From Nitrospirota bacterium (GTDB taxonomy: Bacteria > Nitrospirota > Thermodesulfovibrionia > UBA6902 > DSMQ01), in NCBI GenBank assembly GCA_016212185.1, contig JACRGX010000060.1:1-40304 (forward strand): DNA of 40,304 nucleotides. The letters run 5' to 3'. The position numbers and the translations under genes are program-made. The notes below the pieces were generated by a model. That model made no database searches. It was not told the DNA's origin and saw nothing but the letters and a program-made list of their open reading frames with translations. Below, in pieces: positions 13,250 through 40,304 of the stretch (the stretch's first letter is position 1; every line of letters begins with the position of its first letter).

Positions 13250-14169
13250 AAGTATATTAAATACTCAACATTGCCTTTTGGGCCTGTAATCGGTGATTGG
13301 ATAAGCCCCTTAACCCCAAAGCCCATTTTTGCTGTTTCGGTTTTAATCTTTTCTACAACCTCAAAGCGTTTAGCTTTGTCTCTGACAACCCCGCCTTTGC
13401 CAACATGCTCCCTGCCTGCCTCAAACTGCGGTTTTATAAGCGCAATTATTTCTCTTCCGGGTTTTAAAAAAGTAGAAACTACGGGTATGACTTTCAGAAG
13501 GGAAATAAATGACACATCTATTACTGCTATATCTATATTTTTTTCTTTTAAGTCTTCTAGTCTTTTACTTCTGACTTCCCGATACGAGTCTCCGCTTGTA
13601 GAGTCGAGTCTGCGACTAAGGGTCGCTCCGACTGACTTCCCGATACGGGTCTCCGCTCGTAGAGTCAAGTCTGCGACTGAGGGTCGCTCCGACTGATTTC
13701 TGACTTTCTCATCAAGATATCTTATATTTGTTTTTTCCAGCAAAATTACATGTGGGTCGTTTCTGAGCTTATAGTCAAACTGTCCATAACCGACGTCTAT
13801 GGCATAAACCTTCTTTGCCCCGTGTTTTAAAAGACAGTCGGTGAATCCTCCGGTTGATGCGCCGACATCCATTGCAATTTTATTTCTAACATCTACTTCA
13901 AAATCCCTTATTGCCGCCTCAAGTTTTAATCCCCCGCGGCTTACATAAGGCATTTTTTGAAGTATTTCTATCGGGGCATCATCATTTATAAGCGTGCCTG
14001 CCTTGTCAGCTTTAATGCCATTAACAAGGATGTTTCCTCCTAAAATTAATGCACGCGCCTTTTCCCTGCTTTCAGCGAGTCCTTTTTCAAACAGGAATTT
14101 ATCAAGGCGAATTTTATTATTTTTCAAGATTTTTTTGAATGATTGAACTGATAAATTGTCGGGCTTCAT
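13237..14169 (-). CDS. tlyA: TlyA-family rRNA 2'-O-methyltransferase with repeat insertion
   Basis: S4-domain plus FtsJ-like SAM methyltransferase (TlyA/RrmJ-like hemolysin A family), expected to 2'-O-methylate rRNA. The S4 part is IRLDKFLFEKGLAESREKARALI...GNILVNG. The SAM site is AMDVGASTGGFTDCLLKHGA. Later motifs are AIDVGYGQFDYKLRNDP, LLEKTNIRYL, IAVIDVSFISL, and LIKPQFEAGREHVGKGGVVRD. Between NIRYL and IAVIDVSF the family normally has a few residues. Here about 40 extra residues appear, encoded by two tandem 61-bp repeats. The ATG at 14169 is my choice, inside the upstream TPR gene. A TTG at 14127 would begin closer to the conserved S4 domain; neither has a good ribosome-binding site. 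The frame stays open, so function may survive. Confidence 0.87.
   Translation of the reverse strand: MKPDNLSVQSFKKILKNNKIRLDKFLFEKGLAESREKARALILGGNILVNGIKADKAGTLINDDAPIEILQKMPYVSRGGLKLEAAIRDFEVDVRNKIAMDVGASTGGFTDCLLKHGAKKVYAIDVGYGQFDYKLRNDPHVILLEKTNIRYLDEKVRNQSERPSVADLTLRAETRIGKSVGATLSRRLDSTSGDSYREVRSKRLEDLKEKNIDIAVIDVSFISLLKVIPVVSTFLKPGREIIALIKPQFEAGREHVGKGGVVRDKAKRFEVVEKIKTETAKMGFGVKGLIQSPITGPKGNVEYLIYLKKR
13573..13695. repeat. Two tandem 61-bp repeats inserted in tlyA
   Basis: Units at 13573-13633 and 13634-13694 differ at only a few positions (gacttcccgatacg.gtctc ... gggtcgctccgact). Since 61 is not a multiple of 3, the two copies are read in different frames: one gives RPSVADLTLRAETRIGKS and the other GATLSRRLDSTSGDSYREV. 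Flanking bases restore the tlyA frame. Confidence 0.9.
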
Positions 14170-20891: not shown

Positions 20892-21353
20892 ATGAAAAAG
20901 GCGATGTTAATTGCGGTTTTGGTTTTGGCGATTGCAGTAACATACAGCTATGCCCAGATGGCGCACGACATGAAGAGTGAAGGCGCAGAGGAGATGAAAC
21001 ACAGTGACATGGTGTGCAGGGAAGGCATGCTGGGACATGGTAAGATAATGGACTGCATGTCAGACATGATGCAAGACATGTCGGGCATGATGAAAAAGAT
21101 GTCGGGTATGATGAAGAAAATGCCTGATGCGGAAAAAGACAAAACTATGGACAGGATGCACAAGATGTCCGGCATGATGAAGGACATGTGTGCTGAGATG
21201 AATAAAATGTCTGAGATGATGGACAGCGGCATGGCGAAAGAAGAAGACATGAAGATGATGCACGAAAGAATGATGGAAATGAAAAAGCGTATGTCCGGTA
21301 AACAGGAATCAAAAGAGGAAACGCCTGCCAAACCGGAGCAGCATAAGCATTAA
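20892..21353 (+). CDS. Exported methionine-rich protein, probable copper binding
   Basis: A 153-aa protein with a signal peptide (AMLIAVLVLAIAVTYSYA) and a mature part in which about one residue in four is Met (34 by my count). Typical runs are MSGMMKKMSGMMKKM and EDMKMMHERMMEMKKRM; there are three Cys and a His-containing end (PEQHKH). Clusters of Met on a charged helix are the usual way periplasmic proteins hold Cu(I) or Ag(I). The start is the ATG at 20892 with aaaggggtgatt. It is embedded between two YHS genes and a CopA-type ATPase, which supports copper storage or chaperoning outside the membrane. I do not match it to a named family. Confidence 0.8.
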   Translation: MKKAMLIAVLVLAIAVTYSYAQMAHDMKSEGAEEMKHSDMVCREGMLGHGKIMDCMSDMMQDMSGMMKKMSGMMKKMPDAEKDKTMDRMHKMSGMMKDMCAEMNKMSEMMDSGMAKEEDMKMMHERMMEMKKRMSGKQESKEETPAKPEQHKH

Positions 21354-36477: not shown

Positions 36478-37584
36478 ATGGCTCATGAAACGGACTCACC
36501 GGCGGTCTTTGCCGAGATTGACCTTAATGCCTTGTCGCGCAACCTTGATGCAGTCAGGAAGAAGACAAAAAATAAATCTGCAATTCTCGCTGTAGTCAAG
36601 GCAGGGGCTTATGGTCACGGCGCTGTGCAGGTCTCACGGCGGCTTCTGGACCAAGGCGTATCAATGTTAGGCGTAGCCTTTGCAGAGGAGGCGGTCAGGC
36701 TCAGGGATGCAGGCATAAAGGCTCCGGTGCTTGTTTTTTTTGACAGAGATAATATAGACGCATATTTTAAATATAAACTAACGCCTGTGGTTTTTGACCT
36801 TGAAACAGCCCGGAAAATCGCCAAAGAGGCTTACAGGCGAAGCTGCAGGATGCCTGTGCATATCAAAGTGGATACCGGCATGGGGCGTATCGGGTTTACC
36901 CCGCAGGATGCATTTCAATCAATTATTAAAATCTCCAGGATGAAAAATATTGAGCTTGAAGGCATTATGAGCCATTTTTCAGAGGCAGACCTCAGTGATA
37001 AAGAATTTGCCTTATGGCAGATAAAAAACTTTATACATCTTGTGAAATCACTGAAAAAAAAGAGCGTCGGTTTTAAGTTCCATCATATGTCAAACAGCGC
37101 CGCTGTCATGAGTTTTCCCGAGGCTCACTTCAACATGGTCAGGCCCGGCATAATGCTTTACGGTTACGGTGTTAAAGAGCACAGACTCAGTCCTGTGCTA
37201 AGCCTTAAAAGCAGGATTATACAGATTAAAAAAGTTCCCGCCAATACACCGGTGAGCTATGGGAGAACTTATATCACAAGGAGAAAAAGCGTTATAGCCA
37301 CGGTCCCTTTGGGCTATGCCGACGGGTATAACAGGAAACTCTCAAACTACGGAGAGGCGCTTGTAAACGGCAGGCGCGCGCCTGTTGCCGGAAGGGTCTG
37401 CATGGATACGGTCATGCTTGACGTTACGGCAATCCCCGGGGTTAAAGAAAATGCAGAGGTTGTTTTAATCGGAAGGCAGGGGAAAGAAAAAATTACTGCG
37501 CGGGAAATTGCAGATAAAATCGGCACCATCCCCTATGAAGTTCTTACGTCAATAAGCCGGCGGGTTAAAAGAGTCTATAAGTAA
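36478..37584 (+). CDS. alr: Alanine racemase
   Basis: Makes D-alanine for peptidoglycan with PLP. The 368-aa fold-III enzyme has the PLP lysine in AVVKAGAYGHGA (Lys41), HIKVDTGMGRIGF, MSHFSEAD, FHHMSNSAAVMSFPEAHFNM, VRPGIMLYG, VPLGYADGYNRKLSN and RVCMDTVMLDV. The start ATG follows tatA by 3 bases without its own clear site, suggesting coupling. It is the last gene of the kinase-mobA-tatA group. Nothing with a terminator shape was seen after it. Confidence 0.96.
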   Translation: MAHETDSPAVFAEIDLNALSRNLDAVRKKTKNKSAILAVVKAGAYGHGAVQVSRRLLDQGVSMLGVAFAEEAVRLRDAGIKAPVLVFFDRDNIDAYFKYKLTPVVFDLETARKIAKEAYRRSCRMPVHIKVDTGMGRIGFTPQDAFQSIIKISRMKNIELEGIMSHFSEADLSDKEFALWQIKNFIHLVKSLKKKSVGFKFHHMSNSAAVMSFPEAHFNMVRPGIMLYGYGVKEHRLSPVLSLKSRIIQIKKVPANTPVSYGRTYITRRKSVIATVPLGYADGYNRKLSNYGEALVNGRRAPVAGRVCMDTVMLDVTAIPGVKENAEVVLIGRQGKEKITAREIADKIGTIPYEVLTSISRRVKRVYK

Positions 37585-37780
37585 ACAAACTGCAGTTCCA
37601 GCCTGATTTAAAAACCCTTAAAGCAATCTAAATTCAGCAGCCGTATGCCTTTCAAGACCAAAGCATTAGCATAGGACACTCTTTGGGGGATGTTCTGTGG
37701 TAATATGTGCGTAAAAACCTGTGGTTTTTCAATAGCAGCGATTTGTATAATTGGCGTTGTTATTGCATAATGTGGAGTAA
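37585..37780. other. Gap after alr
   Basis: About 200 bases with no gene that I can support. A frame continuous with the cas6e remnant extends back to about 37703, but it has no recognisable Cas6 sequence before KGIKFE. A small hairpin (aaaaacctgtggttttt) lies near 37715-37730. It may be scrambled remains of the same cas gene. Confidence 0.35.
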
Positions 37781-37906
37781 CAAAGGGATTAAATTTGAGG
37801 TATCCTGAAAGTGGTTGAGCCGGATGCTTTTGTTCAAATAATACACCAAGGCATCGGCCGCGCCAAGTCCTTCGGCTGCGGCCTTATGCTGGTGAGGCGG
37901 GTATGA
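37781..37906 (+). pseudogene. 3' remnant of cas6e (type I-E CRISPR endoribonuclease)
   Basis: A 35-codon stretch ending at TGA 37904-37906 reads GILKVVEPDAFVQIIHQGIG followed by RAKSFGCGLMLVRRV. This is the typical Cas6e/CasE C-terminus (GVLxVxDPxxF...GIGxAKxFGCGLL). Just before it, KGIKFE, which belongs to the same conserved strand, is in another frame. One G is missing at about 37799, and a TGA blocks the frame. No further Cas6e sequence is seen upstream, so only the last ~40 residues remain. Its stop overlaps the next possible ATG (37903), the arrangement usual between cas6e and cas1 in type I-E operons. cas1 and cas2 are absent here. Confidence 0.75.
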
Positions 37907-37932
37907 GAGTGAAGAACGAGAAAGGGGCTAAC

Positions 37933-38805
37933 ATGGAATCAAATATTGCTGTTTTTAGAGGGAAGGAAGTCAGAAGAATAATTCACAACAAAGAATGGTG
38001 GTTTTCTATAGTAGATGTATGTGGAGCGCTCACTTCAAGCGCCGATGCGGGAGCATACTGGAGGAAGTTGAAACAAAGACTCAATGAAGAAGGAAGTGAG
38101 GTCGTGACGTTTTGTCACGGACTGAAATTACCGGCCTCTGACGGGAAAAACTACGAAACCGATTGCGCCAACACCGAAGGCATTTTCCGTGTTATCCAGT
38201 CTATCCCTTCCCCCAAGGCCGAGCCTTTTAAGCGCTGGCTTGCAAAAGTCGGGTACGAGCGAGTGCAGGAGATAGAAAACCCGGAGCTTGCGACGAAGAG
38301 AACAAGGGCTTTATACAAGGCAAAAGGATATTCTGATGTCTGGATTGAAAAACGCATGCGTGGCATAGCCATCAGGGAAGAACTCACCGATGAATGGAAA
38401 AAGAGGGAAGTGAAAGAGAAGAAGGAATATGAGATATTAACTGCTGAAATTGCAAGGGCTGCATTCGGCATTACACCGTCCCGGCATAAGAAACTGAAAG
38501 GTCTAAAGCGAGAAAATCTTCGTGACCACATGAACGACCTTGAACTGATTTTCTCAATGCTCGGCGAAGCTGCAACTACTGAGATAACACGGGTGGATAA
38601 TGCAAAAGGATTTCATGAGTCCAAACATTCAGCACGCAAAGGTGGCGAAGTTGCAGGCAAGGCACGAGAAGACCTTGAACGGAAAACCGGTAAACGTGTT
38701 GTCTCACGAGAGAATTATCTGACCGAGCCAGAAAGCCGGAAGAAGTTGGAGGGAAAGGAATTAAGGGTAAGGATCATCAATGGCACAAAACGCAAAGAAA
38801 ACTGA
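37933..38805 (+). CDS. Bro-N family protein (phage antirepressor-like)
   Basis: A 290-aa protein with an N-terminal Bro-N domain (MESNIAVFRGKEVRRIIHNK, WWFSIVDVCGALTSS, IFRVIQSIPSPKAEPFKRWL AKVGYERVQEIENPEL). It then has a basic helical C-terminal region (KRTRALYKAKGYSDVWIEKR, GITPSRHKKLKGL, DNAKGFHESKHSARKGGEVAG). Bro-N/DinD-like proteins occur in phages and commonly as solitary bacterial genes; DNA binding is likely, the role here unknown. The ATG at 37933 is chosen because gaaaggggctaac precedes it. An ATG at 37903 overlapping the cas6e stop would add ten residues. It probably entered between cas genes by transfer. Confidence 0.83.
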   Translation: MESNIAVFRGKEVRRIIHNKEWWFSIVDVCGALTSSADAGAYWRKLKQRLNEEGSEVVTFCHGLKLPASDGKNYETDCANTEGIFRVIQSIPSPKAEPFKRWLAKVGYERVQEIENPELATKRTRALYKAKGYSDVWIEKRMRGIAIREELTDEWKKREVKEKKEYEILTAEIARAAFGITPSRHKKLKGLKRENLRDHMNDLELIFSMLGEAATTEITRVDNAKGFHESKHSARKGGEVAGKAREDLERKTGKRVVSRENYLTEPESRKKLEGKELRVRIINGTKRKEN

Positions 38806-38926
38806 ACATTCCGGCGCCAAGAAAGGCTCCGGCGCTTACTGGGGGAGGAAGATTGCGGCCAAGAAGGAATCAAACAGGAAAAGACGGGAGAATGATAAGG
38901 GGAGTGTAAGGGAGCAGAAGGAGTAG
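38780..38926 (+). CDS. Small basic protein (48 aa) coupled to the Bro-N gene
   Basis: A 48-codon frame, MAQNAKKTEHSGAKKGSGAY, then WGRKIAAKKESNRKRRE, starts inside the last codons of the Bro-N gene (26-base overlap) with a weak aagga site. More than a third of its residues are Lys or Arg. Overlap and position suggest translational coupling, and it may be a partner of the Bro-N protein. I recognise no domain. Confidence is moderate because the length is short and the opposite strand is also open. Confidence 0.6.
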   Translation: MAQNAKKTEHSGAKKGSGAYWGRKIAAKKESNRKRRENDKGSVREQKE

Positions 38927-38937
38927 TAAGGTTCAAG

Positions 38938-40304
38938 ATGACAGAATATTATGCGCATACACCAAATGATGACGGCAACTGGCATTTCCTTGATGCACAC
39001 TTGAAAGAAGTAGCAGAGCTTGCCAAAGCATTTGCAGGTAAATTTGACGCCGGTGATTTAGCTTTTTGGATTGGACTATGGCATGATCTGGGAAAAGCTA
39101 ATCCTGAGTTTCAAGATTATCTTAAGGCATGCAATAAGAATCAATATCACATAACCGTGCCTCATTCTATTTGGGGCTCAGCATTGGCATATGCGCTTAT
39201 CAGTAGAAACAAAGAAGGTAGTCGCTGGGAAGAAATAGCTCTAACGATTGCAGGACATCATGGCGGAATTGACCAACCGGGATCACTGTCTCAGAAGCTT
39301 GCGGAGCGCATTCAAAATAATCAGATGATCTTCCAACATATTGTTGAGCATGCAAAGAAACTTCCTTCCCCACCACAAGTAAGCCTGCCGGAATTGACCC
39401 GCACACAAAGAGAATTGTTTATTCGAATGGTTTTCTCTACACTTGTTGATGCTGATTACCTGAACACGGAAAAACATTTCAAAGAGAAGCAGTACCTTTT
39501 AAGACAGCAACAGCAGCGGATCGAAAATCTCTGGAATATATTTGATGTAAATCAAAAACAGTTTATTGATGCTGTCCACTCTGAAACTGATGTCAACAAG
39601 GTTCGTAAGGATGTTTATGAATTGTGCGATAAAGCGGCATTAGGGAAGCCCGGTGTCTATAGACTAACGGTGCCAACCGGTGGCGGTAAAACAAGAAGTG
39701 GTCTGGCTTTTGCGCTAAGACATGCTGTTGAAAACAAGATGGACAGAGTTGTTGTTGCAATTCCTTATACAAGCATCATTGACCAGACGGCAAAAGAGTA
39801 TAGGAAGATTCTTGGGGTTGATGCAGTGCTTGAACATCACAGCCAGGTAAGCGTTCCTGCTGATGAAAGTCAGGATGTTACGCTTATTTCATTAAGACTT
39901 GCCATTGAGAATTGGGATGCGCCGCTTATTGTGACTACAACGCTACAGCTTTTTGAAAGCCTCTTTTCGAATAAGCCGGGGAAAGTGCGCAAACTTCACA
40001 ATCTTTGCCGGAGTGTTATTGTAATAGACGAAGTTCAGGCTTTGCCGCCGGAATTACTGACTCCGACTCTTGACGTGTTGAAGGAGCTTGTTGAGCGATA
40101 TTCTATTTCCGTTGTTCTTTGCACTGCAACCCAGCCGGCATTTGAAGATAGTCATTATCTGAGACCGTTTCAGGGAATGCAAGTCAACGAGATAGTGCCG
40201 AAAGAAATATACAAAGAGCATTTTAAGAAACTTGAGCGAATCACATACTCCCGAAAAAAAGAGCCGATCTCCTGGCAGGAATTGGCAAATGAAATCTCTG
40301 AGGA
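38938..40304 (+). CDS. cas3: CRISPR-associated Cas3 (HD nuclease plus helicase), 3'-truncated by the window
   Basis: The first 455 codons of a Cas3, the nuclease-helicase that degrades DNA marked by a type I Cascade. Residues 1-200 are the HD nuclease: FLDAHLKEVAELAKAF with the first His, LWHDLGKANPEFQDYL (His-Asp near 49), VPHSIWGSALA and IAGHHGGI. The SF2 helicase begins with VPTGGGKTRSGLAFAL (Walker A near 244), then VAIPYTSIIDQTAKEYR, VIVIDEVQALPP (DExH-like box near 363) and LCTATQPAF (motif III). No frameshift is seen up to base 40304. The start ATG lacks a strong ribosome-binding site. The HD sequence looks more like type I-C/I-B than I-E by memory; the missing Cascade genes downstream would settle it. 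Confidence 0.93.
   Translation, partial: MTEYYAHTPNDDGNWHFLDAHLKEVAELAKAFAGKFDAGDLAFWIGLWHDLGKANPEFQDYLKACNKNQYHITVPHSIWGSALAYALISRNKEGSRWEEIALTIAGHHGGIDQPGSLSQKLAERIQNNQMIFQHIVEHAKKLPSPPQVSLPELTRTQRELFIRMVFSTLVDADYLNTEKHFKEKQYLLRQQQQRIENLWNIFDVNQKQFIDAVHSETDVNKVRKDVYELCDKAALGKPGVYRLTVPTGGGKTRSGLAFALRHAVENKMDRVVVAIPYTSIIDQTAKEYRKILGVDAVLEHHSQVSVPADESQDVTLISLRLAIENWDAPLIVTTTLQLFESLFSNKPGKVRKLHNLCRSVIVIDEVQALPPELLTPTLDVLKELVERYSISVVLCTATQPAFEDSHYLRPFQGMQVNEIVPKEIYKEHFKKLERITYSRKKEPISWQELANEISE

Follow-up and report, generated by a model that had tools for sequence, protein, structure and literature searches.

We found that a Bro-N gene lying between a scrap of type I-E cas6e and a type I-C-like cas3 belongs to family PDC-S13. 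We read it, with a probability of roughly 55%, as an embedded single-gene antiphage defense candidate that lodges at the seams of multigene defense operons and that would also have had a module-joining role here. The gene sits near the end of the window, the whole 40,304-nucleotide stretch of DNA that was analyzed, which is one entire contig of the 103 that make up a 2.33-Mb draft genome. What looked like a phage gene in a damaged CRISPR locus becomes a recurrent and testable component of defense operons.

The CRISPR stretch follows an alr-like housekeeping gene (36478–37584), the final syntenic gene ahead of the island. Synteny with a same-genus genome (G189), at 88% DNA identity, stops at window position 37582 and gives way to different genes thereafter; the CRISPR stretch was therefore probably inserted directly 3′ of alr. 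The ∼210 bp after the alr-like stop (37585–37797) form the left border of the acquired island and hold no recognizable gene, and an Rfam search of the locus, this segment included, returned no match. The truncated 3′ end of cas6e (37798–37906), the Bro-N gene (37933–38805), a small ORF termed p48 (38780–38926), and cas3 (38938–40304) follow on the + strand, the strand that also carries the alr-like gene; the contig end at 40304 falls inside cas3. None of the direct repeats in the window forms a CRISPR array. Farther upstream, the window holds a 61-bp stretch duplicated in tandem (13571–13692) and consecutive 21-base methionine-rich repeats (21042–21235). The same genome also has a type III locus (L090; G000:C5, 6982–18274) in which two cas1-cas2 pairs stand in tandem and a CRISPR array lies where the contig ends.

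The cas6e remnant comprises the C-terminal 35 codons and a TGA stop (37904–37906), as the first-pass annotation had recognized. The 35-residue peptide matched TIGR01907 (E = 5.7e-10) and PF08798 (E = 9.4e-13), and the closest relative was the intact cas6e from L137, which is a complete I-E operon (90.8% DNA identity over 109 bp). The annotation had also proposed a one-base frameshift, which we could not confirm: the DNA stops resembling the nearest intact copy of cas6e abruptly at 37798, and a truncation junction accounts for this equally well. The residues KGIKFE, read in another frame just before 37798, fit a cas6e motif loosely, and the sequence farther upstream is unrelated. A longer, frameshifted cas6e was rejected, as the comparison with that nearest intact copy revealed nothing homologous upstream of 37798. 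In place of a complete gene in an I-E operon, the window holds 35 codons of cas6e, and no other cas6e was found in the genome. Similar cas6e-tail scars lie upstream of Bro in L005, L080, L032, and L140, where the working cas6e is located elsewhere, which suggests that effector-module replacement is common at the cas6e/Bro seam. Separately, L143, L144, and L148 carry a second, out-of-place cas6e C-terminal fragment after the stop codon of the working cas6e, a pattern that suggests exchange of cas6e ends.

The Bro-N ORF opens at 37903, in an ATGA overlap with the cas6e stop, and the conserved start at 37933 yields a protein of 290 residues. It contains a Bro-N domain (PF02498, 56 bits, E = 6e-15), and its residues 12–283 align with positions 4–277 of the 286 in the PADLOC PDC-S13 profile, a full-length match (E = 2.6e-121). 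A search of GTDB genomes with this protein recovered 80 loci, mostly at ∼55–84% identity, in hosts spread widely and patchily over Nitrospirota, Desulfo-groups, Elusimicrobia, candidate phyla, and DPANN archaea. The earlier description of the gene as phage-type is misleading, as relatives occur in only 4 of 50,697 phage records (and in 11 of 72,556 plasmids) and are common in CRISPR and R-M loci on chromosomes. The PHROG matches of the window protein were weak. The phage Bro-N relatives are annotated as anti-repressors, proteins that are phage-encoded beside a repressor, and the window gene has cas3 as its neighbor. With Bro-N domains also present in phage anti-repressors, a role as an operon regulator is possible. 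PDC families stem from a guilt-by-embedding screen (Payne et al. 2024, preprint 10.1101/2024.01.29.577857, as cited in PMC12988326) and, according to PMC12988326, are mostly unvalidated. A literature search found no functional assay of the PDC-S13 family.

To avoid the bias of picking loci by similarity, we searched 230 genomes of the class with the Bro profile, Cas1, and Cas3-HD, defining “near” as no more than 20 kb from cas1 or cas3 and computing the expectation from genome sizes. Of the 45 high-scoring Bro genes (at least 440 bits), 22 were near copies, the window's own among them, where 0.83 would be expected (P about 2e-27), an enrichment of about 26-fold for close relatives. The low-scoring relatives gave 1 of 43, although the two score bands are not independent, the profile having been built partly from CRISPR-linked sequences; without score bands, 26 of 101 copies lie near cas genes. 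All 26 run in the same direction as those cas genes, and the CRISPR-linked copies fall into two supported clades in the tree. The survey and the scarcity of the family in phages led us to reject the chance insertion of a single phage gene.

Enrichment and shared direction also count against a selfish drifter, a mobile single gene without benefit that is tolerated at seams where insertions harm least. Such a gene would fit the very wide, patchy spread over phyla, the scraps of flanking DNA that some copies carry (cas6e tails, for example), and the presence of other drifter-type genes at the same seams. Nevertheless, Bro has evolved at a dN/dS of 0.05–0.13 over long divergence, which indicates strong purifying selection, and neither transposase nor terminal repeats nor conserved ends were seen. 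We consider the drifter unlikely. A mobile element with fixed ends was rejected on the same flanks: what Bro copies have in common there is cas genes, p48, or short local leaders.

About half of the 80 Bro loci are type I CRISPR operons. In type I-E, Bro lies between cas6e or cas5e and cas1e, with the intact order cas6e-Bro-cas1e in L137, L141, L142, L029, and L011; the first-pass annotation was therefore correct that the window gene begins where cas1 would be expected. In type I-C, the position is between cas7c or cas4 and cas1, and a third set of copies occupies the operon head before cas3. No copy was seen inside the effector block in the type I CRISPR loci examined. Other genes use the same seams: in Bro-free I-E loci (L173, L174, L177, L178, L179, and L180), the cas6e/cas1e seam is filled by BrnT/BrnA toxin–antitoxin pairs or DUF1016/YhcG nucleases, and RhuM genes (one, in L065, checked with Pfam) occur alongside Bro at the I-C seam. 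PADLOC assigns two of these genes to candidate families as well (RhuM to PDC-S23/S05 and DUF1016 to PDC-S02).

Away from CRISPR, Bro is often found in R-M systems. The second copy in the source genome (L091) has a PLD/SNF2 helicase on one side and a type IIG enzyme-methyltransferase on the other, and L139 has the order Mod-Bro-Res of a type III R-M system, with similar arrangements in L182, L186, L187, and L188. In L181, L184, and L185, Bro stands beside housekeeping genes, as would fit a mobile passenger. A Bro copy outside CRISPR in L004 carries 48 bp from the start of cas1e that match the I-E locus of that genome (L034) at 92% identity, a match suggesting that Bro can exit a CRISPR locus and take a fragment of it along. 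In two genomes of one genus (L123 and L126), Bro is at the same non-CRISPR site, with p48 in only one of them, and its leader is similar to the one found in L124, where Bro precedes cas3. In L189 (4486–9210), a PurL-like (FGAR-AT) protein continues in frame at its C-terminus into Bro-N, for a total of 1575 aa.

These placements bear on whether Bro is a dedicated CRISPR accessory, that is, an operon-embedded regulator or adaptation factor that, DdrC-like, would hold DNA ends and could feed Cas1–Cas2 or control cas1 expression. Bro is often directly upstream of cas1, with stop and start codons overlapping in several loci, and the DdrC-like predicted fold described below, the anti-repressor annotation of phage relatives, and the two CRISPR-linked clades all agree with such a role. 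However, the family also occurs in R-M operons without adaptation genes, including the second copy of the source genome; Bro precedes cas3, away from cas1, in the window and other loci; and unrelated nucleases and toxin–antitoxin pairs fill the same seam. A dedicated accessory thus seems improbable to us. The earlier remark that the gene could be a regulator or cargo pointed in the right direction, and an embedded defense candidate is the closest description.

To characterize the protein, we compared its segments across copies and predicted its structure. Pairwise identity in residues 37–80 (38041–38172), a putative hypervariable recognition cassette, is nearly uncorrelated with that in residues 82–262 (r = 0.01–0.15) and reaches 0.25 with the N-terminus, whereas other segments correlate with each other at 0.29–0.61. 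This decoupling fits a cassette swapped between Bro copies, and the 90%+ DNA match of the window gene to L078 is confined to the cassette. The AlphaFold model (mean pLDDT 85.3) has a winged-helix Bro-N domain and a helical C-terminal domain, with the cassette covering the second helix and the following strands of the N-terminal domain; by analogy with winged-helix proteins in general, we infer that it could be a DNA-recognition surface. Sequence searches gave no credible PDB homologue. The best solved fold match was DdrC (Foldseek E = 6e-7, 257 columns), with low TM-scores by query length (0.27–0.40), perhaps because the domains are oriented differently. Viral fold matches include KilA-N/Bro-N regulators.

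Downstream of Bro, p48 is a basic 48-aa ORF that overlaps the Bro 3′ end. Profile searches found no family match for it, and relatives in L013, L020, and L028 share 87–90% protein identity. In the class, 22 copies were found; 10 of them lie 61–1153 bases upstream of a same-strand cas3, including in I-E and Bro-free loci, and 7 directly follow Bro. We flag p48 as an undescribed small gene ahead of cas3. The window cas3 encodes HD and helicase domains (TIGR01596, E = 5e-31), and its best PADLOC model is Cas3c (E = 8e-130), of the I-C group. The contig ends before any cas5c-cas8c-cas7c block that a type I-C operon would have downstream, and Cas_Csd1 was not found elsewhere in the draft genome.

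The two flanks of Bro point to different CRISPR types. To the left, the DNA is 91% identical to the I-E locus L137; to the right, the p48 region is 90–94% identical to the I-C loci L013, L020, and L028. In a tree of residues 77–262, the window Bro groups with the I-E Bros of L005 and L029 (support 92). Given I-E matches on one side, I-C matches on the other, and a conserved Bro part that groups with I-E, the locus is best read from its sequence as a hybrid in which an I-E cas6e tail meets an I-C p48-cas3 at Bro, the sole shared element. The spacing between the cas6e stop and Bro and the leader match those in intact I-E loci; together with the grouping, this indicates that Bro probably traveled with the cas6e tail. 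That two CRISPR systems are mixed here had been proposed from the start and holds. The accompanying suggestion that Bro had invaded the locus does not, since Bro recurs in type I CRISPR operons and R-M operons alike, and Bro-p48-cas3 is conserved without any I-E remnant in L013, L020, and L028. The first-pass annotation had named such conservation, along with an intact cas6e elsewhere in the genome, as evidence against its scenario; the former was found and the latter was not.

Those same three loci would also suit an explanation confined to the window, in which deletions eroded an earlier I-E locus and an independent I-C locus carrying Bro-p48-cas3 later arrived right next to its remains, without Bro serving as a site of recombination. 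The I-E-like spacing and leader, however, and the grouping of the conserved part with I-E Bros speak against a separate landing, which we regard as doubtful. A metagenome assembly chimera is a further possible source of the hybrid. For a genuine hybrid, recombination through Bro would be the simplest route; no breakpoint could be placed inside the gene.

As an embedded defense candidate, Bro would be co-transcribed with its host operon and would probably bind DNA through its swappable recognition surface. It could then act as a second layer that either attacks or silences the DNA of phages or halts the cell once CRISPR or R-M has been bypassed. Since CRISPR loci of different types hold copies that are highly similar, Bro may also serve as a homology patch for recombination between loci; recombination of this kind, or a transfer with an equivalent outcome, would have joined the I-E cas6e-Bro end to the I-C p48-cas3 head beside alr. 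Against the defense reading stand the facts that DdrC is not a defense protein, that TM-scores to it are low, that Bro-N occurs in phage anti-repressors, and that some copies have housekeeping neighbors (L181, L184, and L185). More tentatively, a PDC-S13 clade may regularly inhabit the type I CRISPR operons of several phyla, swap its cassette between copies, and provide a homology block for the exchange of effector and adaptation modules between I-E and I-C. The family was already known as a defense candidate; the present analysis adds the CRISPR-linked clade, the apparently swappable cassette, and the hybrid locus. The places to look are the seam that precedes cas1 and, ahead of cas3, the head of the operon. 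Bro would offer a concrete route for the shuffling of CRISPR modules, and the protein is suggested to recognize DNA through an exchangeable cassette.

Several known systems resemble parts of this picture. Phage Bro-N/Ant anti-repressors share the N-terminal Bro-N domain with the window protein but differ in the C-terminal part, and phage records hold almost no members of the window family. DdrC of Deinococcus radiodurans (PDB ID codes 8u0g, 7udi, and 7qvb), characterized by a winged helix of Bro-N type and a helical dimerization domain at the C-terminus, covers both the Bro-N-like N-terminal and the helical C-terminal parts of the predicted model; it binds DNA, prefers single strands, and shields DNA from nucleases (PMC5436757). 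Identity to DdrC is 12–14% and the TM-scores are low, so we do not claim family membership, and DdrC is a DNA-damage response and repair protein not known from a defense operon, whereas Bro is found in such operons. RhuM/Fic genes embedded in R-M operons (PMC3710099) have the same habit of residing inside defense operons but are unrelated to Bro in sequence, and RhuM has only been proposed to act as a toxin. The closest counterpart is PDC-S13 itself: the window Bro-N is likewise embedded in an immune operon, the way in which PDC families were found, and many of its relatives have CRISPR and R-M neighborhoods.
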